Assembly: GCA_017624735.1 (NCBI GenBank)
Contig: JAGAMK010000022.1
Location: forward strand, 1-55,104
Origin: Clostridia bacterium
GTDB lineage: Bacteria; Bacillota; Clostridia; Oscillospirales; Acutalibacteraceae
Direction of reading: 5' to 3'
DNA: 55,104 bases
The notes under the pieces are model-generated. The model was given only the letters and a program-made list of their open reading frames with translations, made no database searches and was not told where the DNA came from. A program made the translations under genes and the position numbers. This document shows positions 922-28,015 of the stretch, piece by piece (the first letter of the stretch is position 1; each line of letters begins with the position of its first letter).

Positions 922-958
922 TTGAAAAAAAATGCATTTTATATTATCATATATGATA
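922..958 (+). promoter_or_regulatory. Sigma-A-like promoter with overlapping 14-bp palindrome
   Basis: TTGAAA (922-927) and TATCAT (945-950) are separated by 17 bases and precede the NuoE-like gene. A perfect palindrome, TATCATATATGATA (945-958), overlaps the -10 box and would be well placed as a repressor operator. No cognate regulator is identified. Confidence 0.4.
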
Positions 959-982
959 GGTTTTTTATACGGAGGTATATAT

Positions 983-3225: not shown

Positions 3226-5853
3226 TTGAGTATTACATTAACTATTGATGAAAAAAAGATAATCGCAGAAGAAGGTATGACAATACTCAATGTTGCCACA
3301 CAGAATGGAATTAAAATTCCCAATCTCTGTTATGACGGCAGAGTTGAACTCTATGGTGCTTGCGGACTTTGTACTGTTGAGGTGGAGGGTAACCCAAAAC
3401 TTCTCCGTGCTTGTTCAACAAAAGTTGCTGATGGCATGGTTGTGCATACGCAAACTGAAAGAATTAAGGCTTCTCGTAAAGTAGCCCTTGAACTTTTACT
3501 ATCTGACCATACTGGCGACTGTGTTGCACCTTGTAGTAAGGCTTGTCCCGCAGGTACGGATTGCCAAGGCTATGTTGGTCTTATTGCAAATGGTGAATAT
3601 AAAGAAGCAGTTAAACTTATTAAAGAAAAATTGCCACTTCCTGCATCAATCGGCAGAATTTGCCCGCATCCTTGTGAAAAGCAATGTCGCAGACAGTATG
3701 TTGACGAGCCAATATCAATTGCATTCCTTAAAGGATTTGTAGGCGATATGGACTTATTAGGTGATGCTTATGTCCCTGAAATTGAACCTGATACTAATAA
3801 AAAAGTCGCAATTATTGGTGGTGGACCTGCGGGTTTAACTTCGGCATATTTTCTTCGTAAACAAGGTCATAGTGTAACAATTTTTGAACAGATGCCACAG
3901 ATGGGTGGTATGCTCCGTTATGGTATTCCTGAATATCGTCTTCCAAAAGCAGTTTTAGATAAAGAAATCAAGCTTATTGAAGATATGGGTGTAACACTCA
4001 AAAATAATGTGAATATCGGTAAAGATATTTCATTTGAAGAAATCAAAAATAATTTTGATGTTACACTTGTTGCTATCGGTGCTTGGAATAGCAGTAAAAT
4101 GCGTGTTCAGGGTGAAGATTTAGACGGTGTATGGGGTGGTATTGACTTTCTTCGTGAGGTTGCCCTTGGAAATAAACCCGAAATTGGCAAAAATGTTGCA
4201 GTTTGTGGTGGTGGTAATACCGCTATGGATGCTTGCCGTGTTGCAGTTCGCCTTGGTGCAGAAAATGTGTATGTTATCTACCGTCGTACAAAGGACGAAA
4301 TGCCTGCTGACCCGCAAGAGATTCTTGAGTCAGAAGAAGAGGGTGTTATCTATAAATACCTTACAAATCCTATTGAGTTTACAGGTGAAAACGGAAAACT
4401 TAATGGTGTAATCTTGCAAAAGATGGAACTTGGTGAGCCTGATGAAAGTGGTAGAAGAAGACCTGTTGCAATTGAGGGAGAAACCGAAGAAATCGCCCTT
4501 GATAGTGTAATTATGGCAATCGGTCAATATCCGAATCTCAACGGATTTGAAACTCTTGAAGCAACACGAAAAAACACTATTTCAGCAGATGAAAGCAGAT
4601 TTACAACATCAGTTGACGGTGTATTTGCAGTAGGTGATGCAACAAATAAGGGTGCTGACATCGCAATAGCTGCAATCGGTGAGGCACAAAAAGCATCAGT
4701 TGTAATTGACAGATACTTAAATGGTGAAACAGTAGGCTACAAAAAGCCTTATTTCGTTGAAAGAGATAGCAAAGACATAGACTATTCAAAATTCGAGAAA
4801 TCTACAAGAGCCGTAATGCCACACATGAGCCCTGCTGACAGAAAAACTAATTTTAAAGAAGTTAATTTCGGTTTCAGCGAAGAAATGGCTAAGAAAGAAG
4901 CTAACCGTTGTCTTGAATGTGGTTGCCACGACTATTTTGAGTGTAAACTCATCTCCTATGCAAATGATTATGATGTTAAACCATCAAGATTTGCAGGTGA
5001 GAAGCACAATAGAAACCAAGAAAACGCAAACGATTTAATTGCAAGAAATACAGATAAATGTATTCTCTGTGGTCTTTGTGTAAGAGTCTGCGAAGAGGTT
5101 ATGGGCAAGTCTGCAATCGGACTTATTAACCGTGGTTTCAATACTCTTGTTGAGCCTGAACTCTCAAAACACCTCAAAGAAACAGAATGTATTGCTTGCG
5201 GTCAGTGTGTTGCACTCTGCCCAACAGGTGCATTACGTGAGAAAACTGCATTTACAAAAAGTGTTCCTGTTAAAGAATACTCAGCTAAGAGCATTTGCAC
5301 AAACTGTTCTAATCTTTGCGATATTGATTATCGTTATATCGGCTCAACAGTTACCCGAGCATTACCGGTAAATAACGGAATCCTCTGTAAAGGTGGCCGT
5401 TTTGGTGTGCTTAACGAACAGAAAAATACAACTGATTTTGATGCAGTACTCAATTCTGACATTATTGTTATAAGCGGTAGAGTTTCAACTGAAACTGCAT
5501 TTGCTCTTAAAAAGCACGCAGAAGAAAACGAAAAGCAAATATTTACAACTGCAAAAGAAACAGATGCAAACTACTATGCAATTTCAAAACTCAACATTCC
5601 ACAATATAATGGTGAATGTGAAAATACAGTTGAAACCTGCACCTATTACGAAAATGGAACATTTTTCGATAAATATGGTAATAAGAGAGTGCAAAATGCA
5701 ATCTTCAAAGCAGATAACTTCGCGGAGTATGTAAATAACAAACTCAACACACCATATAGTGACTTGAACTTTGAAGCAGAAAAAGCAGTTAATGCAATTT
5801 CAACAGGTAAAGTCACAAATGAAGACATCATCAACGCAAGTAAACTTTTTTAA
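3226..5853 (+). CDS. Stn/NfnB-like fusion: [2Fe-2S]-GltD flavoprotein-ferredoxin with truncated molybdopterin-type Fe4S4 tail
   Basis: This 875-residue protein starts at a TTG with GGAGGTGA at 3213-3220, directly after the previous stop. Domains in order: a [2Fe-2S] ferredoxin fold (residues 1-90, YGACGLCTVEVEG); a GltD/NfnB-type cluster region (CPAGTDCQGY, RICPHPCEKQC); an FAD site (GGGPAGLTS near 195); an NADPH-type site (GGGNTAMDA near 326) and a second FAD motif (AVGDATNKGADIA). Next come CLECGCHDYFEC and two 4Fe-4S sites (CILCGLCVRVC near 610, CIACGQCVALC near 654). A domain like the Fe4S4 head of molybdopterin oxidoreductases follows (CTNCSNLC near 691, ILCKGGRFG). Only about 145 residues remain after it, so the cofactor-binding catalytic body is absent. 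With the NuoE/NuoF-like subunits this predicts an NADH, NADPH and ferredoxin transhydrogenase of the Stn type, not a formate dehydrogenase. Confidence 0.8.
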   Translation: MSITLTIDEKKIIAEEGMTILNVATQNGIKIPNLCYDGRVELYGACGLCTVEVEGNPKLLRACSTKVADGMVVHTQTERIKASRKVALELLLSDHTGDCVAPCSKACPAGTDCQGYVGLIANGEYKEAVKLIKEKLPLPASIGRICPHPCEKQCRRQYVDEPISIAFLKGFVGDMDLLGDAYVPEIEPDTNKKVAIIGGGPAGLTSAYFLRKQGHSVTIFEQMPQMGGMLRYGIPEYRLPKAVLDKEIKLIEDMGVTLKNNVNIGKDISFEEIKNNFDVTLVAIGAWNSSKMRVQGEDLDGVWGGIDFLREVALGNKPEIGKNVAVCGGGNTAMDACRVAVRLGAENVYVIYRRTKDEMPADPQEILESEEEGVIYKYLTNPIEFTGENGKLNGVILQKMELGEPDESGRRRPVAIEGETEEIALDSVIMAIGQYPNLNGFETLEATRKNTISADESRFTTSVDGVFAVGDATNKGADIAIAAIGEAQKASVVIDRYLNGETVGYKKPYFVERDSKDIDYSKFEKSTRAVMPHMSPADRKTNFKEVNFGFSEEMAKKEANRCLECGCHDYFECKLISYANDYDVKPSRFAGEKHNRNQENANDLIARNTDKCILCGLCVRVCEEVMGKSAIGLINRGFNTLVEPELSKHLKETECIACGQCVALCPTGALREKTAFTKSVPVKEYSAKSICTNCSNLCDIDYRYIGSTVTRALPVNNGILCKGGRFGVLNEQKNTTDFDAVLNSDIIVISGRVSTETAFALKKHAEENEKQIFTTAKETDANYYAISKLNIPQYNGECENTVETCTYYENGTFFDKYGNKRVQNAIFKADNFAEYVNNKLNTPYSDLNFEAEKAVNAISTGKVTNEDIINASKLF

Positions 5854-6741: not shown

Positions 6742-7599
6742 ATGAGGATAACAGAAAAATTAATGGTTAAAGACCAACTTATTTCCTTTGAGGTTTTTCC
6801 GCCAAAAACGGATTCTGCCTTTGATAGTATAGAGTGGTCGGTACGTGAATTATCTGCACATAACCCCGATTTTATGAGTGTTACATATGGTGCAGGTGGC
6901 GGTACTTCGCAATACACAACAAAAATCGCATCGCTTATCAAAAATCGACTTGATACTACCGCGTTGGCACATCTCACTTGTGCATCAACACCCAAAGAAC
7001 AGATAGATAATATCCTTGATACTCTTAAAGAAAATCATATTGATAACATTCTTGCTATGCGTGGCGATATTCCACAAGGCTATGAGAAACCGCAAGGGGA
7101 ATACTATACTTATGCTTACGAACTTGTAAAGCATATCAAAGAATATGGATATTTTGACATTGGCGGTGCTTGTTATCCCGAGTGTCATCCCGAGTGTGAT
7201 ACATTAGAAAAAGATATTGATAATCTTAAAAACAAAGTTGATTGTGGCGTCGATTTTCTCATAACACAGCTTTTCTATGACAACGACATCTTTTATTCAT
7301 TCTTGGAAAAAGTCCGTCAAAAAGGCATTTATGCCCCTGTATTTGCAGGCATAATGCCAATTACAAATATAAAGCAAATTGACAGAATAATCGGTCTTTC
7401 GGGGACAAAGCTTCCAAGCGAAGTAACTGATTTCCTTGAAAAATATAAGGATAGCCCGCAAGATTTAGAAAAAGCAGGTCTTGATTTTGCCGTAAATCAG
7501 ATTAATGACTTGCTCTTAAATGGTGTTAACGGAATTCATATTTATACAATGAATAAACCTTATGTTGCAAGAACAGTTTTAAAGGGGATAAACAGATAA
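6742..7599 (+). CDS. metF: 5,10-methylenetetrahydrofolate reductase
   Basis: This 285-residue TIM-barrel flavoprotein matches the usual MetF length. Family motifs are the N-terminal SFEVFPPK with its catalytic Glu, the SVTYGAGGG flavin/folate segment, HLTCAS, LAMRGDIP, GGACYPECHP and the FLITQLFYD strand. MetF reduces 5,10-methylene-THF to 5-methyl-THF with NAD(P)H or ferredoxin electrons, for methionine synthesis or, in acetogens, the methyl branch of the Wood-Ljungdahl pathway. No MetH, MetV or corrinoid genes lie next to it, so a methionine role is the default. Three bases separate it from the downstream DUF5685 gene, implying one transcript. Confidence 0.93.
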   Translation: MRITEKLMVKDQLISFEVFPPKTDSAFDSIEWSVRELSAHNPDFMSVTYGAGGGTSQYTTKIASLIKNRLDTTALAHLTCASTPKEQIDNILDTLKENHIDNILAMRGDIPQGYEKPQGEYYTYAYELVKHIKEYGYFDIGGACYPECHPECDTLEKDIDNLKNKVDCGVDFLITQLFYDNDIFYSFLEKVRQKGIYAPVFAGIMPITNIKQIDRIIGLSGTKLPSEVTDFLEKYKDSPQDLEKAGLDFAVNQINDLLLNGVNGIHIYTMNKPYVARTVLKGINR

Positions 7600-14317: not shown

Positions 14318-15502
14318 TTAACCAAACTGTGAAAGCAAGAAACCGGCAGCAACTGCTGAACCGATAACACCTGCAACATTTGGTCCCATTGCGTGCATCA
14401 AAAGGAAATTTGAAGGGTTATATTTTCTACCTTCAGTTTGTGAAACACGAGCAGCCATAGGAACAGCAGAAACACCTGCTGAACCGATAAGAGGATTAAC
14501 TTTGCCACCTGTCACGAGATTCATAATTTTTGCAAAGATTACACCACCAGCTGTTGAGAATGCGAATGCGAGCAAGCCGATTCCGATAACAAGAAGAGTT
14601 TTCTTATTAAGGAATGCTGACCCTTCTGCAGTAGCACCAACAGTTGTACCAAGCAAAATTGTGACAATATTGCAAAGTGAATTTTGTGCAGTATCTGAAA
14701 GTCTGTCAGTAAGTCCGCTTTCTTTAAAAAGGTTACCGAGCATAAGGAAACCAAGAAGAGGAGCAACTGAAGGAAGAATAAGAACACAGATAACAGTAAC
14801 AATAATAGGGAAGATAATCTTTTCAGCTTTACTAACTGTGCGAAGCTGATTCATTTTGATTTCTCTTTCCTTTTTGGTTGTGAGCATCTTCATGATAGGT
14901 GGTTGTATCAATGGAATAAGAGCCATATATGAATATGCAGCAACTGCGATTGAACCCAAAAGGTGAGGAGCAAGTTTTCCTGTAAGGAAAATAGCTGTAG
15001 GACCATCAGCACCACCGATGATAGCAATGGAAGCTGCTTCCTCAGGTGTAAACTGACCTGAAAGCATAGCAACAGTAAATGCTACATAAATGCCTAATTG
15101 AGCAGCTGCACCAAGCAAAAGGCTTGATGGGTTTGCAAGAAGTGGTCCGAAATCTGTCATAGCACCAACACCCATAAAGATAAGACATGGGAAAATACTT
15201 GACTTAACACCTGCGTATATAAGTCTTAAAACACCGGTGTCATACCAATGAGCATTCGGGTCTAAATATGGATTGTTATCGCCGACAAACGACATGTTTG
15301 TAGGGTCTGCCATAATTTCGGGATAAATGTTAACAAGAAGCATACCAAAAGCAATTGGAATTAAGAGTAATGGTTCAAATTTCTTAACTATTGCAAAATA
15401 TAGAAGAACAAAAGAAACACCAATCATAACCCAGTTTTGCCATGGAAGGTTAACAAAATTAGACTGATTAAAAAGCTCAATAAGAGCATTAATTATTTGC
15501 AT
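14318..15502 (-). CDS. oadB: Na+-translocating decarboxylase beta subunit
   Basis: The 394-residue integral membrane protein is of the OadB/GcdB/MmdB family, the Na+ channel that decarboxylates carboxybiotin and pumps Na+ out. Diagnostic segments include LIPIAFGMLLVNIYPEI, LIFMGVGAMTDFGPLL, IIGGADGPTAIFLT (the conserved Na+-site Asp) and GSAGVSAVPMAARVSQ. Nine or more hydrophobic helices are seen. It is the last gene of the four-gene minus-strand operon alpha, gamma-like, biotin carrier, beta. The substrate (oxaloacetate, methylmalonyl-CoA or glutaconyl-CoA) is set by the alpha subunit, which here looks like a carboxyltransferase for oxaloacetate or pyruvate. Confidence 0.94.
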   Translation of the reverse strand: MQIINALIELFNQSNFVNLPWQNWVMIGVSFVLLYFAIVKKFEPLLLIPIAFGMLLVNIYPEIMADPTNMSFVGDNNPYLDPNAHWYDTGVLRLIYAGVKSSIFPCLIFMGVGAMTDFGPLLANPSSLLLGAAAQLGIYVAFTVAMLSGQFTPEEAASIAIIGGADGPTAIFLTGKLAPHLLGSIAVAAYSYMALIPLIQPPIMKMLTTKKEREIKMNQLRTVSKAEKIIFPIIVTVICVLILPSVAPLLGFLMLGNLFKESGLTDRLSDTAQNSLCNIVTILLGTTVGATAEGSAFLNKKTLLVIGIGLLAFAFSTAGGVIFAKIMNLVTGGKVNPLIGSAGVSAVPMAARVSQTEGRKYNPSNFLLMHAMGPNVAGVIGSAVAAGFLLSQFG

Positions 15503-15515
15503 ATCTGCACCTCAA

Positions 15516-15950
15516 TTAGCCGAGAACTGCAAGAACTTCGTCAGTAGCAACTGATGCACCCTTTGTAGCGATAACCTGTTTAACTGTACCTGCACAAGGA
15601 GCAACGATTTCATTTTCCATCTTCATTGCTTCAAGGATGAAAAGAACATCGCCTTCGTTTACTGATTGACCGTTAGAAACGTTAACTGAAAGAACTGTAC
15701 CTGGCATTGGAGCAGTTACTTTTGTGCCGTCACCAACTGCAACAGGGGCAGGAGCAACTGCAGGAGCTGCTGGGGCTGCTTCAACAACAGGTGTTGCAGC
15801 TGGACCAGCTACAGGTGTTGCAACAGGAGCAACAGGTGCAGCAAGTACAACAGGAGCTGCTGATGGAACAACTGCAGTAACAACTGCTTCGTTAAGTTCA
15901 TTTACTTCAACTTCGTAATCATTTCCGTTTAATGTAACAACATATTTCAT
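15516..15950 (-). CDS. Biotin carrier subunit of Na+-pump decarboxylase
   Basis: The 144-residue protein has a short N-terminal strand region ([19 protein letters not shown]), an Ala/Pro/Val-rich flexible linker (residues 28-75) and a C-terminal biotinyl domain. The biotinylated lysine lies in EAMKMENEI near residue 110. The carrier shuttles carboxyl groups from the alpha subunit to the beta channel. It lies 13 bases upstream of oadB and 14 bases downstream of the gamma-like gene. Stand-alone carriers of this kind are normal in Clostridia and glutaconyl-CoA or methylmalonyl-CoA systems. Confidence 0.93.
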
Positions 15951-15964
15951 TTTAATTTTCTCCT

Positions 15965-16552
15965 TTATTTCTCAATGAGTTTAATTGATTTAAATACAAG
16001 TTTGTCAAGTGGAATTCCTGATTCTTTGCTTGTGATTGCCATTACTTTAGCTGCAGTTTCTTCGTCTGTTTTGTAAAGTTCAGGTGTGTCGCAAAGCTTG
16101 ATTGACTTAAATACAAGTCTTTCAAGTGGAATTTCTGTCTGATGGCTGATAATTGCCATGATTGATGCCGCTGTCTTAAAGTCTGTTTTATAAAGTTCAA
16201 GAGAGTCATCAAGTTTAATTGAACTAAATGAGAGTCTCTGAAGTGGAATACCACTTTCGTGACTTACAATAGCCATAATTGATGCTGCAGTTTTGCAGTC
16301 TGTTTTATAAAGTGTAACACCGTTTGAATATTGAACAGGAGCAGGTGTAACAGTTTCAACCGGAGCAGGGGATGTAACTTTTTCCACAACATGAGTTTCT
16401 GTTGCTGGAGTTTCCTCTGCTTTATTTGCACTGCCTTCAACTGCGCGGATTACCTTTGAAAGCATCACAATAATAACTGCAAGAAGTATAAGAACAATTA
16501 AAACGACAATAAATCCGGTAGCAGAAACACTTAAAATTTCTGGTAATGTCAT
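15965..16552 (-). CDS. OadG-like gamma subunit with triplicated C-terminal domain
   Basis: The 195-residue protein has one N-terminal membrane helix (residues 11-33), typical of the OadG/MmdD assembly subunit. A Pro/Thr linker (45-78) and three tandem 39-residue units follow (81-119, 120-158, 159-195). Each unit has the form LYKTD-x-x-TAA-x-x-MAI-x-S-x-x-x-x-IPL-x-x-L-x-F-x-SIKL. One such unit resembles the small helical end found once in usual gamma/delta subunits; three copies in one chain are unusual. Gamma subunits tether alpha to beta and often bind zinc. It sits between the carboxyltransferase and the biotin carrier, with 12- and 14-base gaps. Confidence 0.8.
15968..16312 (-). repeat. 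Three in-frame 117-base coding repeats
   Basis: The units are 16196-16312, 16079-16195 and 15968-16078 (the last is 111 bases). They encode the three LYKTD...SIKL units of the gamma-like subunit. The copies are clearly related but diverged, so the triplication is not recent. Confidence 0.85.
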
Positions 16553-16564
16553 TTTATGTCCTCC

Positions 16565-17947
16565 TTAGTCGATTCTCTTGATTGAATACTTAAATGTGTT
16601 CTTTTCTTTTTCTGTTCTTGCTTCAAAGAACTTTTCTGCCTGAGCAGGGAATGCGATGTATGAAAGAACATCTTCATCAGATTTTGCTACATCACCGAGT
16701 TCAGCCTTTGTCTGTTCAAACATTGGTTCAAGTTTATCAGCAAAACGGCATGTAACAGGCTCTTCATCACCAAGAACTTTCTTCTGAAGGTCAGCATCAA
16801 TAGGACCTGGTGCTTTACCATACTCACCCTTGATGTATGCTTTAATTTCTTTAGAAATATTCTTGTATCTTTCGCCTACAAGTACATTTGTAACAGCTTG
16901 GTTTCCGACCATCTGGCTAAGAGGAGTAACAAGAGGAGGATATCCCATGTCTTTGCGAACTTGTGGAATTTCTAAAAGAGCTTCTTCCATTCTGTCAAGA
17001 GCATTCATATCTTCAAGGTTTGCCATCATATTTGAAAGCATTCCACCCGGAACTTTATAAGTCAAAGCGTCTGTATCAGTTACAAGTGCTTTTGGTTTTA
17101 AAAGTCCTGATGAGAGATATTGGTCACGAAGTGGTTTAAAGTGGTCATTTACAGCCTTTAATGTGTCTCTGTCAAGACCTGTTTCGTAGCCAAGACCAAT
17201 AAGAGCATCATGTATTGTTTCAGTTGCAGGCTGTGAAGTACCGCCTGAGAAACAAGATGTTGCTGTGTCAATAATATCGCAACCAGCTTCAACAGCCTTA
17301 AGGATTGTCATGTAAGCCATACCTGTTGTGGAGTGAGTGTGCAAGATGACAGGCATTTCAGGCATTGCATCTTTAATTGCACCGACAAGGTCTTTTGCCT
17401 CAACGGGAGTCATAACACCTGCCATATCTTTAATGCAGATTGTAGAGCAACCCATTGCTTTCATTTCTTTACAAAGCGCCACATAATTTTCAAGGGTGTG
17501 AACAGGGCTTGTTGTATAAGAAATAGCACCTGATGCAATTGCACCGTTTTTAATTGTTTCATCAACAGCCACCTGAATGTTACGAACATCGTTAAGTGCG
17601 TCGAAGATTCTAATAACATCAATACCATTTTCAATGCTTTTCTTAACGAACATTCTTACGACATCGTCAGGATAGTGCTTGTAACCGAGAAGGTTTTGAC
17701 CACGAAGAAGCATCTGAAGTTTAGTATCAGGACACTTTTCTTTGATTTTTCTGAGTCTTACCCATGGGTCTTCATTAAGGTAACGAAGACATGAGTCGAA
17801 TGTAGCACCGCCCCAGCACTCAAGAGAATAATAACCTGCCTTATTGAGTTTTTCAAGAATTGGTTCGAAATCAGCGAACGGCATTCTTGTAGCAATAAGC
17901 GACTGGTTGGCATCTCTTAATACGGTTTCTGTAAACTGTACTTTCAT
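16565..17947 (-). CDS. oadA: Oxaloacetate decarboxylase alpha / pyruvate carboxylase subunit B (carboxyltransferase)
   Basis: The 460-residue protein is a TIM-barrel biotin-dependent carboxyltransferase. Motifs are TVLRDANQSLIATRM at the N-terminus, CWGGATFDSCLRYL (ring of metal and substrate residues), LLRGQNLLGYKHYPDD, CIKDMAGVMTP with the catalytic Lys, and the zinc ligands in HTHSTTGMA. It lacks the C-terminal biotinyl domain, which is supplied by the separate carrier gene. The ATG at 17947 has GGAGG eight bases upstream and is preferred to one seven codons earlier. It heads the four-gene operon. The likely substrate is oxaloacetate; a transcarboxylase role with pyruvate is also possible. 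Confidence 0.92.
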   Translation of the reverse strand: MKVQFTETVLRDANQSLIATRMPFADFEPILEKLNKAGYYSLECWGGATFDSCLRYLNEDPWVRLRKIKEKCPDTKLQMLLRGQNLLGYKHYPDDVVRMFVKKSIENGIDVIRIFDALNDVRNIQVAVDETIKNGAIASGAISYTTSPVHTLENYVALCKEMKAMGCSTICIKDMAGVMTPVEAKDLVGAIKDAMPEMPVILHTHSTTGMAYMTILKAVEAGCDIIDTATSCFSGGTSQPATETIHDALIGLGYETGLDRDTLKAVNDHFKPLRDQYLSSGLLKPKALVTDTDALTYKVPGGMLSNMMANLEDMNALDRMEEALLEIPQVRKDMGYPPLVTPLSQMVGNQAVTNVLVGERYKNISKEIKAYIKGEYGKAPGPIDADLQKKVLGDEEPVTCRFADKLEPMFEQTKAELGDVAKSDEDVLSYIAFPAQAEKFFEARTEKEKNTFKYSIKRID

Positions 17948-18017
17948 AGTTTTTGCCTCCAAACACAAATAGTTTATACATAAAATACAAATTATCCCAA
18001 TTTAATGTATTGTGTTT

Positions 18018-19039: not shown

Positions 19040-20113
19040 ATGACAATTTATTTTGGTGAAAATATCAGAAAACTCCGTAAAGAAAAGGAATTAACTCAAG
19101 AAGCCCTTGCAGATTTTTTAGGAGTAACATTTCAGGCTGTCAGTAAATGGGAAAGAGGAGAAACATATCCCGATATAACCACACTACCTGTAATTTCAAG
19201 ATTTTTCAATGTTTCAATTGATGATTTACTCGGTGTAAATAAAGCCCGCGAAGAAGAAAAAATCAATGAATACCTTGTTTTATATGAAAGATGGCGGCTT
19301 AAAGAAACTACTGAAACTTTTTCAAAATTTAAAATTGCAATTAAAAAATTTCCAGGAGATTACCGTATTCTTGTAAGATATATGGAACTTTTAAGGTGTG
19401 AATGTGATTATAGAGATGAAAAAGCGACTCATGAATTACTTTCAATCTATGATAATATTCAAAGACATTGTACTGATGATAGTATAAGGATGTGGTCAAA
19501 GCGAATAGTCTGTCAACATTTGAATAGACTAGCAGGTTGTACAAATAATTATGACTATCAGAAACAGGCGAATGAAATCCTTGCAGAAATGCCATCTTTA
19601 CTTAATTCAAAAGAATATCTTGAAGTAACAATGAATGATGATATTGAAATGCAAAAAACTGTATGTGAAACTGCAATTACAGAGTTACTTTATTTGCTTG
19701 ATAATTGTTTTGCTCATTATTGTTATTATGACGGTAATTTTACAACTGAATATAAAATTGAAGTAGTTAGCAATACAAATGCGCTTTTCCATACCTTTTA
19801 TCAAAATGAAAATTACGGAAAGAATTGGATGCATCTTGTATATAACTACGGACATTTGGGTCATTGGTATTTTGAGTTAGGAAAAGAGGAAGAAGCACTA
19901 CATTATCTTAAAATTGCCGCTAAATATGCTATTAAGTGTGATTCTGTTTTAGATAATACAGAAACGGTTGCAAAGTTTTATGAGCAAGAAAGAGACTTTC
20001 GGGAAATGAATATGTGTACTCGTATGAAAGAACTTATGACCGAACACTACCCATTATCCGATGAGTTTAAATCAAAACCAGAATTTCAAGAAATCATTAA
20101 GATGTTGGAATAA
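19040..20113 (+). CDS. XRE-family regulator with TPR-like C-terminal domain
   Basis: The 357-residue protein has a Cro/C1-type helix-turn-helix at residues 6-60 (IRKLRKEKELTQEALADFL, VTFQAVSKWERGETYPD). A long alpha-helical region resembling tetratricopeptide repeats follows (residues 85-355; for example LGHWYFELGKEEEALHYLKIAAKYA). Proteins of this design in Clostridia sense peptides or cell state through the TPR part. AGAGGTGA precedes the ATG. It is divergent from the TSUP pair and has palindromes in the shared region. Confidence 0.88.
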   Translation: MTIYFGENIRKLRKEKELTQEALADFLGVTFQAVSKWERGETYPDITTLPVISRFFNVSIDDLLGVNKAREEEKINEYLVLYERWRLKETTETFSKFKIAIKKFPGDYRILVRYMELLRCECDYRDEKATHELLSIYDNIQRHCTDDSIRMWSKRIVCQHLNRLAGCTNNYDYQKQANEILAEMPSLLNSKEYLEVTMNDDIEMQKTVCETAITELLYLLDNCFAHYCYYDGNFTTEYKIEVVSNTNALFHTFYQNENYGKNWMHLVYNYGHLGHWYFELGKEEEALHYLKIAAKYAIKCDSVLDNTETVAKFYEQERDFREMNMCTRMKELMTEHYPLSDEFKSKPEFQEIIKMLE

Positions 20114-20150: not shown

Positions 20151-20188
20151 TTTATTTTCGTTCAGCACAGAGACACAACTCTATACCA

Positions 20189-20220
20189 AAAAAGAGATTG
20201 TTTTCACAATCTCTTTTTTT
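20189..20220. terminator. Bidirectional terminator
   Basis: AAAGAGATTG-TTTTCA-CAATCTCTTT has an A-run on the left and a T-run on the right. It sits between the convergent XRE gene and the minus-strand AcsB-like gene. Confidence 0.8.
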
Positions 20221-20229
20221 CATATCTGT

Positions 20230-20925
20230 TCACTTTTTCGCAGTTTTTAAATGCAATTCTTTAAGTCCGTCAACTTCGTCGCAGATTTCTTTAAGATTAC
20301 AAGTTGAACAATCAAACATCACATTGTCAAAAATATGATTTAATGCCGAAGTTGTCTGACTTATTTTTTTTGCAACAGAATTTAATCTATCGAAATTATC
20401 AAAATCAGTTACAAAATAAATTTCTGCACTTTTAACGTAATCAAACTTAAGATACTCATTCAAAAGTGTTTGTCCGTAATCGGCAAAAGTAACACCTGAT
20501 TTAACAGCCTTTTTGCTTACTCTAATTTGTTCACGCATATTAAGAGCAGATGCTCTTGTCATAAATCCGTCAACAGATAAATGATATCTTAATGCTTCCA
20601 ATTCTTTAATCTTGTTAAAGGTGTTTTGTTCATCATCAAAATTTTCAATCTGAATAAAAACAAATTTACCAAAAGGGGAGTCAGACTTGATTTTATCAAT
20701 GTCATCACCCAATAAATATACAGAATTAGAGAAATTAATGTCACTTGTTACCGCAAGACTGCTGACACAAGGTTTTTGACTACCACCAAGTTCAAATGCT
20801 GTATCTGACAAGAAAATTACAGAGTTTTTAGCACTTGTATTAAGTGTTTTGTTGCTCTTAATTAAAACTTTTGCATCATTTAAACTGTTTTTTATTTCAT
20901 TGATAAGGTTATTATATAATTTCAT
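20230..20925 (-). CDS. Short AcsB/CdhC-like protein with a C-x2-C-x5-C motif
   Basis: The 231-residue protein is not a known enzyme by itself. Residues about 85-185 resemble a segment of the acetyl-CoA synthase beta subunit (AcsB/CdhC). The shared pattern is SPFGKFVFI, then RYHLSVDGFM, MREQIRVSKKAVKSG, then a Tyr-Gly and Leu, ending VKSAEIYFVTD. The normal A-cluster cysteines (a CGCFE-type motif) are absent. Instead there is CSTCNLKEIC near residues 205-214, followed by EVDGLKELH, which could bind an Fe-S cluster or metal. It is the last gene of the CooC/dehydratase-like run; its ATG joins the preceding stop as TAATG. The family assignment rests on pattern memory and is tentative. Confidence 0.55.
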   Translation of the reverse strand: MKLYNNLINEIKNSLNDAKVLIKSNKTLNTSAKNSVIFLSDTAFELGGSQKPCVSSLAVTSDINFSNSVYLLGDDIDKIKSDSPFGKFVFIQIENFDDEQNTFNKIKELEALRYHLSVDGFMTRASALNMREQIRVSKKAVKSGVTFADYGQTLLNEYLKFDYVKSAEIYFVTDFDNFDRLNSVAKKISQTTSALNHIFDNVMFDCSTCNLKEICDEVDGLKELHLKTAKK

Positions 20926-21080
20926 TATAATTTCTTATCTCTTTTCATTTTGTCATAGTGCTTCTGCAACCAATCATAAACAACTCTTACAAGCTTCATA
21001 TCAAGGTTGAACCAATAAATTGCAAAAGTTATAAGGAAAAGTGCAAGAATAACACCAAGAATTATAAATAAAACTTCCAT
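20925..21080 (-). CDS. Small single-pass membrane protein
   Basis: The 51-residue protein has one hydrophobic helix (residues 2-24, MEVLFIILGVILALFLITFA). A basic amphipathic tail follows (VRVVYDWLQKHYDKMKRDKK). The ATG at 21080 has AAAGGAG upstream; a longer reading to 21116 would overlap the activase gene. It lies one base after the activase stop and overlaps the next gene by one base. It could anchor the cluster's enzyme at the membrane. No family is recognised. Confidence 0.65.
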   Translation of the reverse strand: MEVLFIILGVILALFLITFAIYWFNLDMKLVRVVYDWLQKHYDKMKRDKKL

Positions 21081-21081
21081 A

Positions 21082-21882
21082 TTAGTTCTCCTTTGCAAGA
21101 CCTTTCTGACGAGCATATTCGGCAGCGCCTAAAGCACCCATAAGCTGTGGGTCAGTCTTTAACTCAACAACGTTGATTTTAAGAACTTTTTCAATTGCCT
21201 TTTTAAGACCATCGTTTTTTGCACAACCGCCTGTAAGAGTAATACTATCAACGGCACCTGCTTTTTTAGCCATAACAAAGCAACGTTTTGCAACTGCTAA
21301 CTGGATACCTGCAGCAATTTCGTCCATTGGTTTTCCTTCACCAACAAGTGAAATAACTTCACTTTCAGCAAAAACTGTACATTGTGCAGTAATCGGAATA
21401 GTGTTTTTAGCGTTAAGTGAAAGCTTTGAGAACTCAGGTAATGTCATTTCAAAAGCATTAGCCATAGCCTCATAGAAACGACCAGTACCTGCAGCACATT
21501 TATCGTTCATAGCAAAGTTTTTAACTGTACCGTCTGTGTCAATTGATATACCCTTAACGTCCTGACCGCCGATATCAATAATTGCTTTAACTTCAGGGTT
21601 TGTAACGTGAACACCCATAGCGTGACAACTGATTTCAGAAATGTTTTCGTCAGCAAATGGAACTTTATTTCTACCATAACCGGTACCGATGAGATATGTA
21701 AGTTCTTTTGCAGAGTTAAGTTCTGAGACTTGTGCAACTGCATCTTGCAGTGCAATTTCAGCACTCTGAACAGGGTTTATTTTGCTTCTATTGGTAACAT
21801 TGGCAATCATATTGCCGTTTTCGTCAAGAATAACGCATTTTGTATATGTTGAACCAACGTCGCATCCACCAAAAAATTTCAT
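21082..21882 (-). CDS. 2-hydroxyacyl-CoA dehydratase activase (HgdC/BcrA-type ATPase)
   Basis: The 266-residue protein is an ASKHA-fold ATPase. Motifs are GGCDVGSTYTKCVI at the N-terminus, DIGGQDVKGI near 100 and the adenosine motif LTGGCAKNDGL near 222. The two cysteines that bridge the dimer's [4Fe-4S] cluster are in DKCAAGTGRF and QCTVFAESEVI. These activases hydrolyse ATP to inject an electron at very low potential into a dehydratase, benzoyl-CoA reductase or double-cubane protein. It lies 15 bases after the 509-residue partner subunit, which fits a dedicated reductase. Confidence 0.92.
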   Translation of the reverse strand: MKFFGGCDVGSTYTKCVILDENGNMIANVTNRSKINPVQSAEIALQDAVAQVSELNSAKELTYLIGTGYGRNKVPFADENISEISCHAMGVHVTNPEVKAIIDIGGQDVKGISIDTDGTVKNFAMNDKCAAGTGRFYEAMANAFEMTLPEFSKLSLNAKNTIPITAQCTVFAESEVISLVGEGKPMDEIAAGIQLAVAKRCFVMAKKAGAVDSITLTGGCAKNDGLKKAIEKVLKINVVELKTDPQLMGALGAAEYARQKGLAKEN

Positions 21883-21897
21883 AATTTATTCTCCTTT

Positions 21898-23427
21898 TTA
21901 CCAAGCAAGGTCATCTTCAAAATCTACAAGTGAAGCATCAAGTGGCTCTTCCTGTAAAACCGTCTGCATATATTTGTTAACCTGGTCACGCATTTCACGA
22001 CGAGAAATTGTGCGTGGGTCCATAAGGTCTTGTTTAACCCAAATAAAGTTAACATTTCTTTCTCTTGCTTGGTCATCAAAAATACCTGTAAGACCATCCA
22101 TACCTTTACATGAAATCTGGTCATACATAATAACTGTGTCGGCATTGTATTCGTCAACAATTCTCCAGAGTTCATCAACAACGTTTTTATAACCGCCCTT
22201 GGTGTGCTTTCTCATAATTGAACGCTGATATGTTTTTGCAAGGTCTTTTAATGCCTGTTCTTTATCTTCTGTGTTAATCTCAAGATATGAAATCATTGTT
22301 TCCATATCCATAACAACGTTAATGCCCCAACAATTTTCAAGCCAGTTTGCAAAGCTTGTGTAGTAGTTAGCTGGGCAGGACCATACAACTGCTCTGTGTC
22401 TCATTTCTTTTGAAACAGGAGTTTTCTTTTCGTAGGCCTTCATCATTATCTTGTTAACTTTTTTGTCAACTTTTAAGAATCTTTCGTTTGTACCACCTGA
22501 AAGGTTGAAATAGAAAATTCTGTAAAGCCAGAAACAAGCACCTGTCATCTGTGGATATTCTGTTCTGTTAATATCCCATTTCTGCAATTCATAATCAAGC
22601 TGTTCGTTGTACTGTTTCATTCGCTTAAAGAACGCATCCCAATCAAACTTTTCACCTGTTTGTTTTTCTATGAATTCAATAAGCGCCTTAATTTCATCAA
22701 CACCATATTCCTGAACGTCTTCACCATTATAGCGAAGTGGAATGCCAAAGAAATGAGTTGGAAGGTTTATTCTTCTGTCAAGGAATGATGAGTTCATAAT
22801 TGAACCGTCACAAGGCATATTTGTGCCAATCATACAACACCCCATTTTAGGATAATCGTCTTCAATAGCAACACCTGCTTCAGCACTTGGAAGGGGACAA
22901 ACATCAGCAGGAACACCAAAACTTTCAACAACCTCAAGATATGGCGGAGTAATCTGCTGGTCAACCATTGAAGATAAGAAAATAGGTAATGTTTGTAATG
23001 GTACAGGAATAAGGTTTGGGAAACCTGTAAAGATTTCGTTTGGAACAATTTCGTCCATCAAAACAATTCTCTTTGAAAGTTTATTGTTTGGATTGATTTT
23101 CTCATCTGCTTTTAATGATAAGTTAATCAAATCAGTTGTGTGTTTGACAATCATATTATAGTGAAGATGAGCCATACGGAGTTGAGGTCCACGAAGTCCT
23201 GCCACGTGTCTGTCAATGAATGATGGAGCAGAGAGATAAGATGCCATCCAACGATAACGCCAAATACCTTTTACTGTAGAGACAGGTGCTTTAAGTGCCA
23301 TTTTGATAATGTCTTTCCATGTAACAAGCCAGCGGTAGTAGTCATACATTGTGTCTTTAAAACCACGCCATTCACGGTGTTTTAATATGGCAGTATGTTC
23401 TTTATAAAGCTTACCGTAATTATCCAT
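21898..23427 (-). CDS. 2-hydroxyacyl-CoA dehydratase / double-cubane-type subunit (HgdA/B-like, large)
   Basis: The 509-residue protein belongs to the HgdB/BcrC superfamily. Likely Fe-S ligands are Cys in GVPADVCPLP, NMPCDGS and YDQISCKGMDG, in the usual order. An extra CC lies in MGCCMIG. Members reduce or dehydrate acyl-CoAs, or as double-cubane proteins reduce small molecules, after ATP-driven activation. It is longer than typical HgdA/HgdB (380-480) because of a helical N-terminal extension of about 110 residues (YDYYRWLVTWKDIIKMALK..). Its start overlaps the preceding subunit by 8 bases. No CoA-transferase, CoA-ligase or acyl-CoA dehydrogenase is nearby, so the substrate is unknown. Confidence 0.85.
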   Translation of the reverse strand: MDNYGKLYKEHTAILKHREWRGFKDTMYDYYRWLVTWKDIIKMALKAPVSTVKGIWRYRWMASYLSAPSFIDRHVAGLRGPQLRMAHLHYNMIVKHTTDLINLSLKADEKINPNNKLSKRIVLMDEIVPNEIFTGFPNLIPVPLQTLPIFLSSMVDQQITPPYLEVVESFGVPADVCPLPSAEAGVAIEDDYPKMGCCMIGTNMPCDGSIMNSSFLDRRINLPTHFFGIPLRYNGEDVQEYGVDEIKALIEFIEKQTGEKFDWDAFFKRMKQYNEQLDYELQKWDINRTEYPQMTGACFWLYRIFYFNLSGGTNERFLKVDKKVNKIMMKAYEKKTPVSKEMRHRAVVWSCPANYYTSFANWLENCWGINVVMDMETMISYLEINTEDKEQALKDLAKTYQRSIMRKHTKGGYKNVVDELWRIVDEYNADTVIMYDQISCKGMDGLTGIFDDQARERNVNFIWVKQDLMDPRTISRREMRDQVNKYMQTVLQEEPLDASLVDFEDDLAW

Positions 23428-24625
23428 TCTCTCTCATCTCCTTTGCTTTTTGGATTTTCTTGATTTCAAGGCTTTCAACAAAAGCTTGAACACGTGTACG
23501 AAGTTGTCCTGATGCTGAGGCTGTGTACTGACGGTCAACTGCCGCAGTTGGAACACCGTAGTCTCCACTCATAACATAAGATGCAAGGGCACGTTCGTAA
23601 CCCCAATATTCGCAGAATTTAATCTGTTCATACATAACACCATCTGCATGGTATGTGTCAACTAATTCTTTAACGTAGTCACGTCTTTCCTGAACCTTTT
23701 CGTGACTCATATATCTTGGACATTGACTGGTTTTCATATAATGAAGCGCAATCTGTGTAAGAACATCATCTTCATCGTTCAAAATGATTTCTTCACGTCC
23801 TGGCATTGAACCAAAACAGAAACGGTCAGCAACAACCAATGCACCACTGTCTTCAATAAGTTTTGTGAAGTCAGGGTCGTCCATTTCAGAACCGACAACA
23901 ACAATTTTTGCTCTGTAATTTTTCTTCTGGTCAGGTTCTCTTGTTTTTAATTCTTCTGCAGTTTCACGAAGTTTGTCAAGAATTAAGTATTTAGGACAAC
24001 AATATGTTGCAACGCAAAGCACGTGGAATTCATAACCTGTAATTCTTGGATTTTCTTCTTTACGGTATTCACCGATTTCTGTAATAAGTCGGCAGATTTC
24101 ATTGTGTTCTTCAACTGCTTTTCTCAATGCCTCATCACTTGTGTCAATGCCGTAAACCTCTTGTAATTTATCAAGAACTTTAACTCTTAACTGATTTGCA
24201 TAGTGTTTAACAGTGTGTTTTTCAATTTTGAACGGTGAGTCAACAAAAGATACAAAGAATTTATCGTTAGGAACAAGTTTAAGTAATTCAAAATGTTCAT
24301 AGCAACGATTCATTTCGGAACAAGTTTCTGAACCGATAAGAGCAGACAGGAAATTGTAACCACCTTCAATACCTCTTTCAAGTAAAGCTTTTGAATAACC
24401 ACAAAGGAATGAACTCATATAATATGTGGCAATATCCATAGAGCCTGTCCTTGGTGCTCTGAGTCTTACTGAAAAACAGTTGTCAAGATTTAATAATACC
24501 TCTGGAATGTGATAGCAAGTATATGCGATAGCGAGTTTGCCATCATTTGTTGCTTGCTTCACAAGGTCATTATTTGCCTCTTGCAACAGGTTTTCAAAAT
24601 AAATTAAATGTTTTAAATCTTTCAT
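23420..24625 (-). CDS. 2-hydroxyacyl-CoA dehydratase / double-cubane-type subunit (HgdB-like, small)
   Basis: The 401-residue protein has the superfamily N-terminus, AIAYTCYHIPEVLL. Cluster-ligand cysteines are likely in SSFLCGYSK, SETCSEMNR and EQIKFCEYWGYER, matching HgdB-type spacing. It would pair with the 509-residue subunit to hold one cluster per chain. Its first codon is adjacent to the stop of the CooC-like gene and its 3' end overlaps the next gene by 8 bases, so production of the three is tightly linked. The C-terminus ends in a charged tail (KKIQKAKEMRENG). Confidence 0.85.
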   Translation of the reverse strand: MKDLKHLIYFENLLQEANNDLVKQATNDGKLAIAYTCYHIPEVLLNLDNCFSVRLRAPRTGSMDIATYYMSSFLCGYSKALLERGIEGGYNFLSALIGSETCSEMNRCYEHFELLKLVPNDKFFVSFVDSPFKIEKHTVKHYANQLRVKVLDKLQEVYGIDTSDEALRKAVEEHNEICRLITEIGEYRKEENPRITGYEFHVLCVATYCCPKYLILDKLRETAEELKTREPDQKKNYRAKIVVVGSEMDDPDFTKLIEDSGALVVADRFCFGSMPGREEIILNDEDDVLTQIALHYMKTSQCPRYMSHEKVQERRDYVKELVDTYHADGVMYEQIKFCEYWGYERALASYVMSGDYGVPTAAVDRQYTASASGQLRTRVQAFVESLEIKKIQKAKEMRENG

Positions 24626-25390
24626 TTATATAACCCCAATCTCATTAAGAGCTTTTTTAACACCGTTTACAACATTTGATTCTGCAGGAAGGTTAAAAAT
24701 ATTTTCTCCCTTGATATCAAATACTGACAAATTCTTATCGTCTTCAATATAACTTAAAACAGGAATACCTTTTGTATCAATGTAATCTTTAAGACTTTCG
24801 TCAGCCATACGATTAACAATTACGCCGATTTTTTCATACATAACAAGCTCGTCCGAAACGGATTTAATTGTGTTTATAACCTGACAACCTTTTTTACTCG
24901 GGTCAGTAATTAAGAGCAGGTGAGTAACTTTTTCCATAACACGACGGTTAATTTGCTCAATTCCCGCTTCACCGTCAATTATAACATAATCAAACTCGTT
25001 TGAAAGAATAGAAATGACTTCTTTTAAATATGTATTGATTTTACAATAACAACCTGCAGTTTCAGGACGACCTACTGCGATAAATGAATATCCGTTTGTT
25101 TCAACAAGTGCGTCAAAAATTCTGTATTTTGCTTCACCTAAAAGTTCAATAGCAGTTCTTGTGTCGCCCTCGTCAACAGATGCAATAATCTCTTTTCTTA
25201 TGTCATCGATTGTAAGTTTTACATCAATTCCCAATGCAGTTGAAAGTCCAACAGCTGGGTCAGCATCAATTGCTAAAATTCTCTTGTCAGGATATTTCTC
25301 CACAAGACATCTTACAATAGTAGCAGAAAGTGATGTTTTGCCAACGCCACCTTTACCTGCAACTGCAATGATAGTTGCTTTTCCTTCCAT
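24626..25390 (-). CDS. CooC-like MinD/ParA-type ATPase
   Basis: The 254-residue P-loop ATPase has a deviant Walker A, GKGGVGKTSLSA, at residues 12-23. DADPAVGLSTALGI follows near 42 and DGEAGIEQINRRV near 138. This arrangement is that of CooC, the ATPase that matures the Ni-Fe-S site of CO dehydrogenase, and of related accessory proteins. CooC's nickel-binding C-x-C is not obvious; the CYCKIN stretch near residue 114 offers C-x-C. No CODH catalytic subunit is in the window, so here it may mature the dehydratase-like or AcsB-like partner. It is the second gene of the run, with 11 bases between it and the upstream membrane protein. Confidence 0.82.
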   Translation of the reverse strand: MEGKATIIAVAGKGGVGKTSLSATIVRCLVEKYPDKRILAIDADPAVGLSTALGIDVKLTIDDIRKEIIASVDEGDTRTAIELLGEAKYRIFDALVETNGYSFIAVGRPETAGCYCKINTYLKEVISILSNEFDYVIIDGEAGIEQINRRVMEKVTHLLLITDPSKKGCQVINTIKSVSDELVMYEKIGVIVNRMADESLKDYIDTKGIPVLSYIEDDKNLSVFDIKGENIFNLPAESNVVNGVKKALNEIGVI

Positions 25391-25401
25391 TTTTTATCAC
25401 C

Positions 25402-26052
25402 TTATTTAATTGCTACCGGCATATTCCATTTAAATGTCATAGCAAGAATTCTTAATATAAATGTAACGGCTATACCAATGATAATTGCGAAAGTTTCATT
25501 GATGTGAATAATCGAACCGTATATGTAGAGTACATAATAAACAGATGCACCAAGTAAAGCTGCAACTGCATAAATACGTTTAACTAAAACGAATGGAGTA
25601 TTGTTTGTAAGAACATCTCGTAACATACCGCCACAAATACCTGTTAAAAGTCCACATGTAATACAAATCAAAGCATCTTCTGGATGACCTTGCTCAATGG
25701 CAACCTTAACACCAACAACTGCAAAAGCACCAAGTCCAAGAGCATCAAAAATATCATTGATATGTTCAATTCTCAATTCGTTTTCGAGATATGTATGGCT
25801 GAATTTTCTTGCAAAAAGAAAAACAATAATTGCTACAATAACGCAAATCAATATGTACCATTTTAAGCCGAAAATAGCTGGTGGGGAAAAACTGAATATA
25901 ACATCTCTCGTAAGCCCTCCGCCATGTGCAGTAATAATGGCAAGAAGAATAACTCCAAAAAGGTCAGTTTTTCTTCTTATAGCAATCATCGCGCCCGAAA
26001 TTGAGAATGCAATAACACCAAGTATTTCAATAAAAGCTGAAAATATTTCCAT
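25402..26052 (-). CDS. UPF0126/TRIC-type membrane channel protein
   Basis: The 216-residue protein has the UPF0126 duplicated fold. Each half has glycine-rich motifs (ISGAMIAIRRKTDLFGV and HGGGLTRDV; GAFAVVGVKVA and ICGGMLRDVL), with about seven helices. Bacterial TRIC-like proteins form trimeric cation channels, and some UPF0126 members have been linked to glycine uptake. The ATG at 26052 has GAGG eight bases upstream; a TTG two codons earlier is possible. It is the first gene of the minus-strand run and is probably co-transcribed with the CooC-like gene, although its function need not be linked. Confidence 0.82.
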   Translation of the reverse strand: MEIFSAFIEILGVIAFSISGAMIAIRRKTDLFGVILLAIITAHGGGLTRDVIFSFSPPAIFGLKWYILICVIVAIIVFLFARKFSHTYLENELRIEHINDIFDALGLGAFAVVGVKVAIEQGHPEDALICITCGLLTGICGGMLRDVLTNNTPFVLVKRIYAVAALLGASVYYVLYIYGSIIHINETFAIIIGIAVTFILRILAMTFKWNMPVAIK

Positions 26053-27797: not shown

Positions 27798-27825
27798 TTT
27801 TATTTTAAGATAATAGAATAATATT

Positions 27826-28015
27826 ACCCTGCGAAGCCCGATAACTGCGGACGATATTAACCCAACACACTATTAAAGGGAGCTTTTTCTCGATTTCATT
27901 GGGAGCAGACCTCCCGTCATTCGACGGAAGAAGGGAGCACAGATATGAACGGAGAGCACCCACCTGCTTAACATGCAGGTTAGTATTCACCGCAACCGAC
28001 TTTGCGGGGCACCTT
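27826..28015 (+). ncRNA. ssrS: 6S RNA
   Basis: The region has the 6S plan: a rod with closing stems and a central open bubble that mimics a promoter. CCCTGCGAAG (27827-27836) pairs with CTTTGCGGGG (28000-28009). TGCGG pairs with CCGCA, and GATATTAACC pairs with GGTTAGTATT (10 bp). The interior GGGAGC / GACCTCCCGTC / GACGG helices and the unpaired CAACACAC segment fit the bubble and terminal arm. A possible promoter is TTGACG-16-TAAGAT at 27784-27811. 6S RNA binds sigma-A RNA polymerase and represses transcription in stationary phase. The assignment is by structure and sequence style, without a model search. Confidence 0.75.

Follow-up and report, generated by a model that had tools for sequence, protein, structure and literature searches.

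Class I benzoyl-CoA reductase is the described enzyme against which the operon reported here is best read. According to PMC11971306, its BzdN subunit holds an [8Fe-9S] double cubane ligated by Cys36, Cys73, Cys100, Cys263, Cys293 and Cys327, its BzdO subunit holds an active-site [4Fe-4S] cluster ligated by Cys95, Cys128 and Cys380, and the role of double-cubane proteins beyond benzoyl-CoA reduction is open. The superfamily performs some of biology's most strongly reducing reactions. Here, we analysed a 55,104-nucleotide stretch of DNA from a gut bacterium of the Clostridia (contig JAGAMK010000022.1; the whole stretch is called the window), in which a minus-strand operon encodes two HGD-D subunits, an activase, a CooC/AcsF-type ATPase, a small membrane protein and a protein resembling part of acetyl-CoA synthase (ACS). 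The gene content of this operon, its conservation, its cluster-ligand signatures and the co-occurrence of its genes are directly established. We propose, with a probability of a little under 60%, that six of its genes encode an ATP-driven, strongly reducing Fe-S enzyme of the class I benzoyl-CoA reductase/double-cubane superfamily, together with dedicated accessory proteins.

A conserved core of six genes

Seven minus-strand open reading frames (ORFs) occupy positions 20230-26052, and each neighbouring pair is at most 15 bp apart or slightly overlapping, exactly as the original prediction had described from the sequence. Pfam, NCBIfam and PDB profile searches agreed with the families it had named, namely a CooC-type ATPase, two HGD-D proteins, an activase, a small membrane protein (50 residues, predicted as 51), a CdhC/AcsB-like protein and UPF0126. 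Below, HGD401 and HGD509 denote the HGD-D subunits of 401 and 509 amino acids, TM50 the 50-residue membrane protein and AcsBl the 231-residue AcsB-like protein. The features of the operon are as follows:

25402..26052, minus strand: UPF0126 membrane protein (PF03458), probably co-transcribed here and outside the conserved core
24626..25390, minus strand: CooC/AcsF-type P-loop ATPase of the MinD/CbiA type, 254 amino acids; best solved relative CooC 3kje, E 6.6e-16 (profile of 9 homologues)
25043..25051, minus strand: CxC motif (GCYCK) of the CooC-type ATPase, aligned to CYCR of CooC 3kje
23420..24625, minus strand: HGD401, HGD-D subunit of the beta/BzdN type, predicted to hold an [8Fe-9S] double cubane; PF06050, E 4.4e-93
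21898..23427, minus strand: HGD509, HGD-D subunit of the alpha/BzdO type, predicted to hold a catalytic [4Fe-4S] cluster; PF06050, E 5.3e-47
21082..21882, minus strand: activase of the acyl-CoA-dehydratase type, 266 amino acids, ATP-driven electron donor; CoA_E_activ TIGR00241, 214.9 bits against a cut-off of 125.4
20925..21077, minus strand: TM50, single-span membrane protein, 50 amino acids (span judged by eye); C-terminal NLDxKL...YD conserved
20230..20925, minus strand: AcsBl, stand-alone protein like domain 2 of acetyl-CoA synthase, 231 amino acids; CdhC PF03598, E 3.1e-07, 30.8 bits against a cut-off of 24
20281..20313, minus strand: C-terminal tail of AcsBl, D205-C206-x2-C209-x5-C215, a putative Fe-S or metal site
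20188..20219, minus strand: hairpin 3' of the AcsBl gene, probable terminator; fold z -4.64, 0 of 200 shuffles as good, missed by the pattern scan

From 5' to 3', 11 bp separate UPF0126 from CooC and 0 bp CooC from HGD401; HGD401 and HGD509 overlap by 8 bp, HGD509 and the activase are 15 bp apart, the activase and TM50 4 bp, and TM50 and AcsBl overlap by 1 bp. The length of 50 residues for TM50 counts from an internal ATG; the first ATG would give 63.

The conserved core consists of CooC, HGD401, HGD509, the activase, TM50 and AcsBl, and it recurs in four families of the class. HGD509 is present in 17 of 36 same-genus genomes, the own genome and 35 others that were searched, and two further genomes of the 59 searched gave weak matches only. 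At 12 of the 17 same-genus loci the core six form one cluster of identical order; one locus is rearranged (L033) and four are cut by contig ends. In L033 (genome G034), CooC is relocated directly before AcsBl; the related clusters that we call type 2 also pair the two genes, with AcsBl first. The window gene order is likewise kept at five of six loci in other genera, the sixth being cut, with the TM50 of one of them (L085) spotted by eye. UPF0126, which had been counted as a member in the original prediction, adjoins the operon at only 4 of the 15 same-genus loci with the upstream flank in view and is therefore not part of the core. Beyond the core, flanking ORFs vary between lineages in size and similarity, and no substrate clue was common to the flanking genes scanned, most same-genus flanks having been compared by ORF size and not by family scan.

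Co-occurrence ties the core together across a wider sample. An AcsBl profile matched 8 of 391 genomes of the class, seven through a short AcsBl (the own genome, G065, G239, G257, G278, G351 and G368) and one through a full-length ACS of 716 amino acids. The HGD509 profile matched 20 of the 391, and it exceeded 700 bits in exactly the seven short-AcsBl genomes; the next matches were a second G239 locus at 91.1 bits and, as the best of any other genome, one at 61.5 bits. Identical seven-genome sets would arise by chance at about 4e-15 if the genes were independent, a guide figure only, as the genomes are related. Because HGD509 and the short AcsBl co-occur in the same 7 of 391 genomes, the grouping goes beyond chance. 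When a sample of 398 genomes of the phylum was searched, the AcsBl profile matched 42; the short form was found only in the own genome and in G602, and the other 40 matches were ORFs of 729-784 amino acids.

Taken together, the operon is real, conserved and, as far as found, undescribed: a member of the HGD family with CooC/AcsF-type and ACS-domain partners. No paper describing this gene combination was found among those listed by searches of the open-access literature, a search that leaves most subscription literature outside, so that novelty is unproven. The combination is not described in the accessible parts of PMC10134865, PMC11574389, PMC7000372 and PMC4148979.

Cluster ligands and candidate substrates

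Residues C37, C75, C102, C270, C302 and C338 of HGD401 fall on all six BzdN ligand positions (by alignment, with positions counted by hand), and none of the six varies across 24 homologues. Other double-cubane-type proteins, YjiM among them, show the same six-cysteine signature, whereas L114 (PCCACC) and L107 (PCCSC-) have it interrupted, a comparison in which many reference rows aligned only in part. The double-cubane centre that the original prediction had suggested is thus borne out in its six ligands, which are confined to HGD401. HGD509 carries C177, C206 and C440, present in 26 of 26 homologues. These match the solved MbdO cysteine on cysteine in a weak alignment (E 3.3e-05), and do so again in an alignment with 10 reference sequences. 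A further cysteine, C198, considered as a possible metal ligand, occurs in 24 of the 26 homologues and, by eye, in 2 of the 10 reference sequences. The HGD-D domain spans residues 128-487 only, and HGD509 has a long N-terminal extension. The third electron-carrying component, the activase, keeps the two cluster cysteines already recognised in the original prediction, C129 and C168, in 25 of 25 homologues. As read from these ligand patterns, the predicted wiring of HGD401 and HGD509 is that of class I benzoyl-CoA reductase and not that of 2-hydroxyacyl-CoA dehydratase, in support of the low-potential, ATP-driven Fe-S system originally proposed.

The HGD subunits score below the cut-offs of the curated models of the known families. 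The benzoyl-CoA reductase models were not reached (TIGR03190, 99.8 against 453.8; TIGR02260, 22.3 against 486.55), nor were the double-cubane cluster protein (DCCP) model NF040772 (135.8 and 54.1 against 350) and the HadC model (90.7 against 700). A HGD401 profile, for which L090 was added to the window-type proteins, gave 256-774 bits for the HGD401-type subunits of every CooC-linked cluster and of the spare HGD pairs (described below), and 135 or less for the other HGD-D proteins tested. We also considered an ordinary 2-hydroxyacyl-CoA dehydratase, which is excluded by the six ligand cysteines, the low model scores and the lack of partner genes among those scanned.

Could the enzyme act on a CoA thioester, as a benzoyl-CoA-reductase-like or dehydratase-like acyl-CoA enzyme for which AcsBl helps to bind or deliver CoA esters? 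Superfamily members of known catabolic function do act on CoA esters, as stated in PMC11971306. Against such a substrate stand the curated model scores, far under cut-off, and the apparent loss of the BzdO Glu65/His131 pair, which in BzdO adjoins the water bound to the cluster. The residue equivalent to His131 varies between homologues (E, N, Q, T, L or A), and the position C206+3 is Ser in window-type proteins; in this comparison BzdO itself lies outside the alignment, the Glu65 column was placed from a motif, and MbdO likewise lacks a His at +3. The gene neighbourhood of the operon speaks against it too: no CoA-transferase, CoA-ligase or acyl-CoA dehydrogenase is present among the 30 family-scanned ORFs of the window (which has 66 ORFs of at least 100 amino acids), or in the single flanking gene scanned beside each of five other-genus operons. 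The absence of such genes, on which the original prediction had relied, therefore stands for the window ORFs and operon neighbours scanned, but related clusters do carry them.

Type-2 clusters (L090 and L148-L152) run in the order of two HGD genes, one or more activases, AcsBl and CooC where the contig allows. In three of them, all with two activase genes and AcsBl, two acyl-CoA dehydrogenases lie upstream beside the HGD genes, as identified by Pfam in L090 and by similarity to L090 in L148 and L152; an unannotated protein is also upstream, of 594 amino acids in L090 and 467 in L152, with two ORFs of 221 and 401 amino acids in L148. L155 (G239:C1 3116001-3134000), which G239 has besides its window-type operon, is a CooC-HGD cluster without AcsBl. 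It encodes a CoA-transferase, a CooC-type ATPase and two HGD-D subunits, together with ORFs judged by eye to be transposase-like, an activase of the BzdQ type that passes its cut-off (420.7 against 380.2), another activase, an acyl-CoA ligase and a thiolase, and it resembles a benzoyl-CoA-reductase-like pathway with its own CooC. Of the two accessory genes, CooC thus has the wider association with HGD enzymes. Behind the operon in L085 lies a gene for an NADH:flavin oxidoreductase (PF00724), whose family includes dienoyl-CoA reductases. Because AcsBl/CooC clusters adjoin acyl-CoA dehydrogenases and L155 has a CoA-transferase, a ligase and a thiolase, a CoA-ester substrate is possible; the clearest acyl-CoA cluster, L155, is however the one without AcsBl, and on balance we consider an acyl-CoA enzyme with AcsBl as its CoA-ester helper rather unlikely.

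The CooC-type ATPase, the AcsB-like protein and the question of nickel

As originally recognised, the ATPase has a P-loop, GKGGVGKT; it also has a CxC motif, C114 and C116, in 23 of 23 homologues. The CooC structures 3kje-3kji are its best solved relatives, with the C-x-C motif aligned. The CxC motif of CooC binds nickel, and the related AcsF inserts nickel into ACS. In the class sample, a CooC profile gave 383-422 bits for window-type CooC (six genomes, as the G065 contig ends before the gene) and 318 for L155. The remaining CooCs split into two groups, each named after the one of the two CooCs in the ACS locus L089 that it resembles. The AcsV-side group scored 176-210 bits, and 16 of its 20 members lie beside AcsV, ACS or gamma-subunit genes, three beside carbon monoxide dehydrogenase (CODH) and one beside neither. 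The CODH-side group scored about 80-125 bits; all four members with neighbours seen adjoin CODH, two of them also ACS. The CooC group nearest to the operon ATPase is therefore tied mostly, not wholly, to ACS genes. In a CooC tree, a branch (96/90) separates all 28 HGD-linked sequences from the 24 others, although long branches leave the exact joins unsure.

AcsBl has its own link to ACS. A profile-profile comparison of 30 AcsBl with 42 full-length ACS sequences matched AcsBl residues 33-191 to ACS 329-487 with a probability of 98.2, and searches against solved ACS structures reached 3git and 1oao at E of about 1e-6 (residues 337-487 of the 729-residue 1oao), a region which we take to be domain 2. 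The full-length ACS equivalog model NF040764 is not reached (33.8 against 800). Judged by these matches, AcsBl corresponds to acetyl-CoA synthase domain 2 alone plus a cysteine tail, with the N-terminal and A-cluster domains missing. The three cysteines of the tail, D-C-x2-C-x5-C, are kept in 24 of 24 homologues and, by eye, in five further sequences. Its position is presumably that at which the A-cluster cysteines of ACS begin. Homology of the tail to those cysteines was considered and rejected: the two are in register on an extended alignment, but shuffled tails did as well in 43 of 60 trials. The tail is probably an Fe-S or metal tail of unproven origin. No other core protein is as poorly conserved as AcsBl (27-83% identity to the window protein). 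The own genome (2.04 Mb, 97.5% complete) yielded neither a second CdhC domain nor a second HGD-D gene. In the class of G602, 69 of 97 genomes have an AcsBl-profile match and six have the short form, which lies in the type-2 clusters, with CooC following and activase genes preceding it in all six. Four of these six also have an ACS-sized match elsewhere, so that the short AcsBl is no replacement for ACS.

These two proteins raise the possibility of a heterometal (nickel or other) double-cubane variant, in which CooC would insert nickel into AcsBl or the active site for reduction of CO2/CO or a C1 compound, or as a substitute for CODH/ACS. The invariant CxC motif, the score of the ATPase nearer to the AcsV-side than to the CODH-side group (in one profile search) and the pairing of CooC with an ACS domain all speak for it, as does the lack of a PF03063 (CODH/HCP) protein in the own genome, which implies that the CooC client there is something other than CODH. 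No PF03063 protein was found in the own genome, in 11 other operon-bearing genomes of the genus, or in G065, G257 and G278. A CooC serving a CODH elsewhere in the genome is therefore ruled out for the own genome; it is conceivable in G239, G351 and G368, which do have PF03063 proteins. However, nickel use cannot otherwise be seen, and the genomes lend it thin support. A single short match in G278 was the only trace of a NiFe hydrogenase in the 27 genomes examined. CbiM gave a strong match in G257 alone and a marginal one in the own genome (24.4 bits, cut-off 23.1), and none of PF03063, NiFe hydrogenase and CbiM matched in the 11 other genus genomes, a search that did not extend to other nickel transporters. 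AcsBl moreover lacks the rest of the A-cluster domain, the alignment of its tail to the A cluster is unsupported, and the operon has no corrinoid or methyltransferase gene. Formyltetrahydrofolate synthetase, tried as a marker of the Wood-Ljungdahl methyl branch, was uninformative, since all 30 genomes examined have it, 18 that carry the operon and 12 that do not. The mixed-metal centre of the original prediction is accordingly not supported, nor is its C1 substrate, and we regard a nickel-bearing variant as improbable. We give similarly poor odds to a mixed-metal enzyme whose metal is loaded via or into AcsBl to form a C1 or small-molecule centre, perhaps the missing CO2/CO enzyme of acetate-forming anaerobes without CODH/ACS. 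As reported in PMC7000372, carbon from 13C-bicarbonate is fixed into acetate by 'Ca. Galacturonibacter soehngenii', which has CODH activity but no known CODH/ACS genes; a link between the operon and this organism is speculation.

Proposed function and comparison with known systems

We return to the ATP-driven, strongly reducing Fe-S enzyme with dedicated accessory proteins. By homology, reduced ferredoxin would load a [4Fe-4S] cluster at the interface of the activase dimer (C129 and C168), and ATP hydrolysis would drive single electrons into the [8Fe-9S] double cubane of HGD401, which would serve as an electron store. Electrons may then move on to the three-cysteine [4Fe-4S] cluster of HGD509, where the substrate would be reduced or turned over via a radical. 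TM50 would tether the HGD401-HGD509 enzyme to the membrane; wherever the stretch just 3' of the activase gene is in view in a window-type locus, a TM50 homologue is the next gene. The CooC/AcsF-type ATPase and AcsBl would act in trans as a pair for metal-site maturation or activation, kin to the ACS toolkit.

The division into an enzyme proper and helpers comes from spare pairs. G278 has two spare HGD401-HGD509 pairs with TM50, one divergent from the full operon (L085) and one alone (L153, C19), and G368 has one spare HGD pair in which TM50 was not seen (L154, C23). No further CooC, activase or AcsBl was found in the stretches read around these pairs, activases not having been searched genome-wide; G278 and G368 gave one AcsBl and one CooC match each, among the best 3 to 7 candidates scored per genome. 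The idea that the genes usually occur apart, which would have told against the original prediction, thus fails for the core six, which stay together across genera, and finds some footing in the spare pairs, which lack accessory genes of their own. Because they lack them, the spare pairs point to HGD401-HGD509-TM50 as the enzyme proper, with CooC, the activase and AcsBl working in trans.

The same pairs bear on whether there is a metabolite substrate at all. The HGD enzyme could instead be a reductive activase that drives low-potential electrons onto a metal centre, with the AcsBl tail as acceptor or relay, by a logic that might be compared to the ATP-driven activation of corrinoid proteins or methyl-CoM reductase. 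The small size of AcsBl, its three invariant cysteines, its co-occurrence with the activase and its conservation, the lowest in the core, would all suit such a role, and reduction at such a cost in ATP would be better suited to activation in catalytic amounts than to the bulk disposal of electrons in a fermenter. Yet the cluster showed no candidate target enzyme, and the HGD pair seems to have a job of its own, given the spare pairs that lack AcsBl. We therefore hold this explanation to be quite doubtful.

Several points also weigh against the enzyme-plus-accessories proposal that we favour. The match of HGD509 to solved alpha subunits is weak. The membrane tether is predicted from hydrophobicity and conservation; TM50 has no Pfam family above cut-off and was not found in type-2 clusters. 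CooC and AcsBl are separable, since L155 has CooC and HGD subunits without AcsBl, and the three-cysteine tail could make AcsBl an electron carrier or a structural subunit. Finally, BzdNO has been produced in Escherichia coli from a bzdNO plasmid, according to PMC11971306, so that a double cubane in general needs no dedicated maturase. Since the double cubane alone needs none, an extra metal or cofactor step stays a live option.

Other features of the window are noted for orientation. A regulator with a helix-turn-helix (HTH) domain plus repeats adjoins the operon, once in the window (19040-20113), twice in tandem in L022 and L027, and not at all in L023. Past a TauE pair, sodium-pump decarboxylase genes (OadA-type alpha, biotin carrier and OAD beta) lie at 14318-17968 on the minus strand, and OadA is close to the operon in near relatives only (L023 and L027-L029). 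Bifurcating-hydrogenase-like genes (a 2Fe-2S thioredoxin-like protein, a Nuo51-like protein and a Fer2/pyridine-nucleotide oxidoreductase of 875 amino acids) lie at 932-5853 and 6742-7599 near methylenetetrahydrofolate reductase, and a 6S RNA gene (Rfam RF00013, 60.9 bits) at 27823-28014.

The operon offers a concrete handle on how such reducing centres are built and which substrates they serve in gut anaerobes. It also carries a warning for annotation: because the own genome has no CODH family protein, the CooC and CdhC domain matches found here do not imply CO dehydrogenase or Wood-Ljungdahl carbon fixation.

How the operon compares with known systems can be stated family by family. Its ATPase shares the P-loop, the CxC motif and the overall family with the metal-inserting ATPases CooC and AcsF; unlike them, it falls on its own side of a tree branch, beside HGD genes, in a genome without a CODH family protein. 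AcsBl is alike to the CODH/ACS beta subunit (AcsB/CdhC) over about 155 residues of domain 2, whereas it has neither the N-terminal nor the A-cluster domain and ends in the C-x2-C-x5-C tail only. With the 2-hydroxyacyl-CoA dehydratases (HadBC and HgdAB) the operon shares the HGD-D fold family and an activase, but HGD401 keeps six ligand cysteines instead of three and no CoA-transferase is seen. The likeness to DCCP (E. coli YjiM/YjiL) lies in the six-cysteine signature of HGD401, the partner activase and the C-D-G at the second cluster cysteine of HGD509, as in YjiM; in contrast to DCCP, the operon enzyme has two different subunits, one of them with only three ligand cysteines, and scores below the DCCP cut-off. 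To the bzd-type class I benzoyl-CoA reductase (BzdNO/BzdPQ) it is alike in its HGD-D heterodimer, its six plus three ligand cysteines and its ATP-driven activase. It differs from that system in having one activase gene instead of two and no aromatic pathway genes seen beside it, and in the apparent absence of the Glu65/His131 pair, and it goes beyond it in the long N-terminal extension of HGD509 and in the addition of CooC, AcsBl and a membrane protein.

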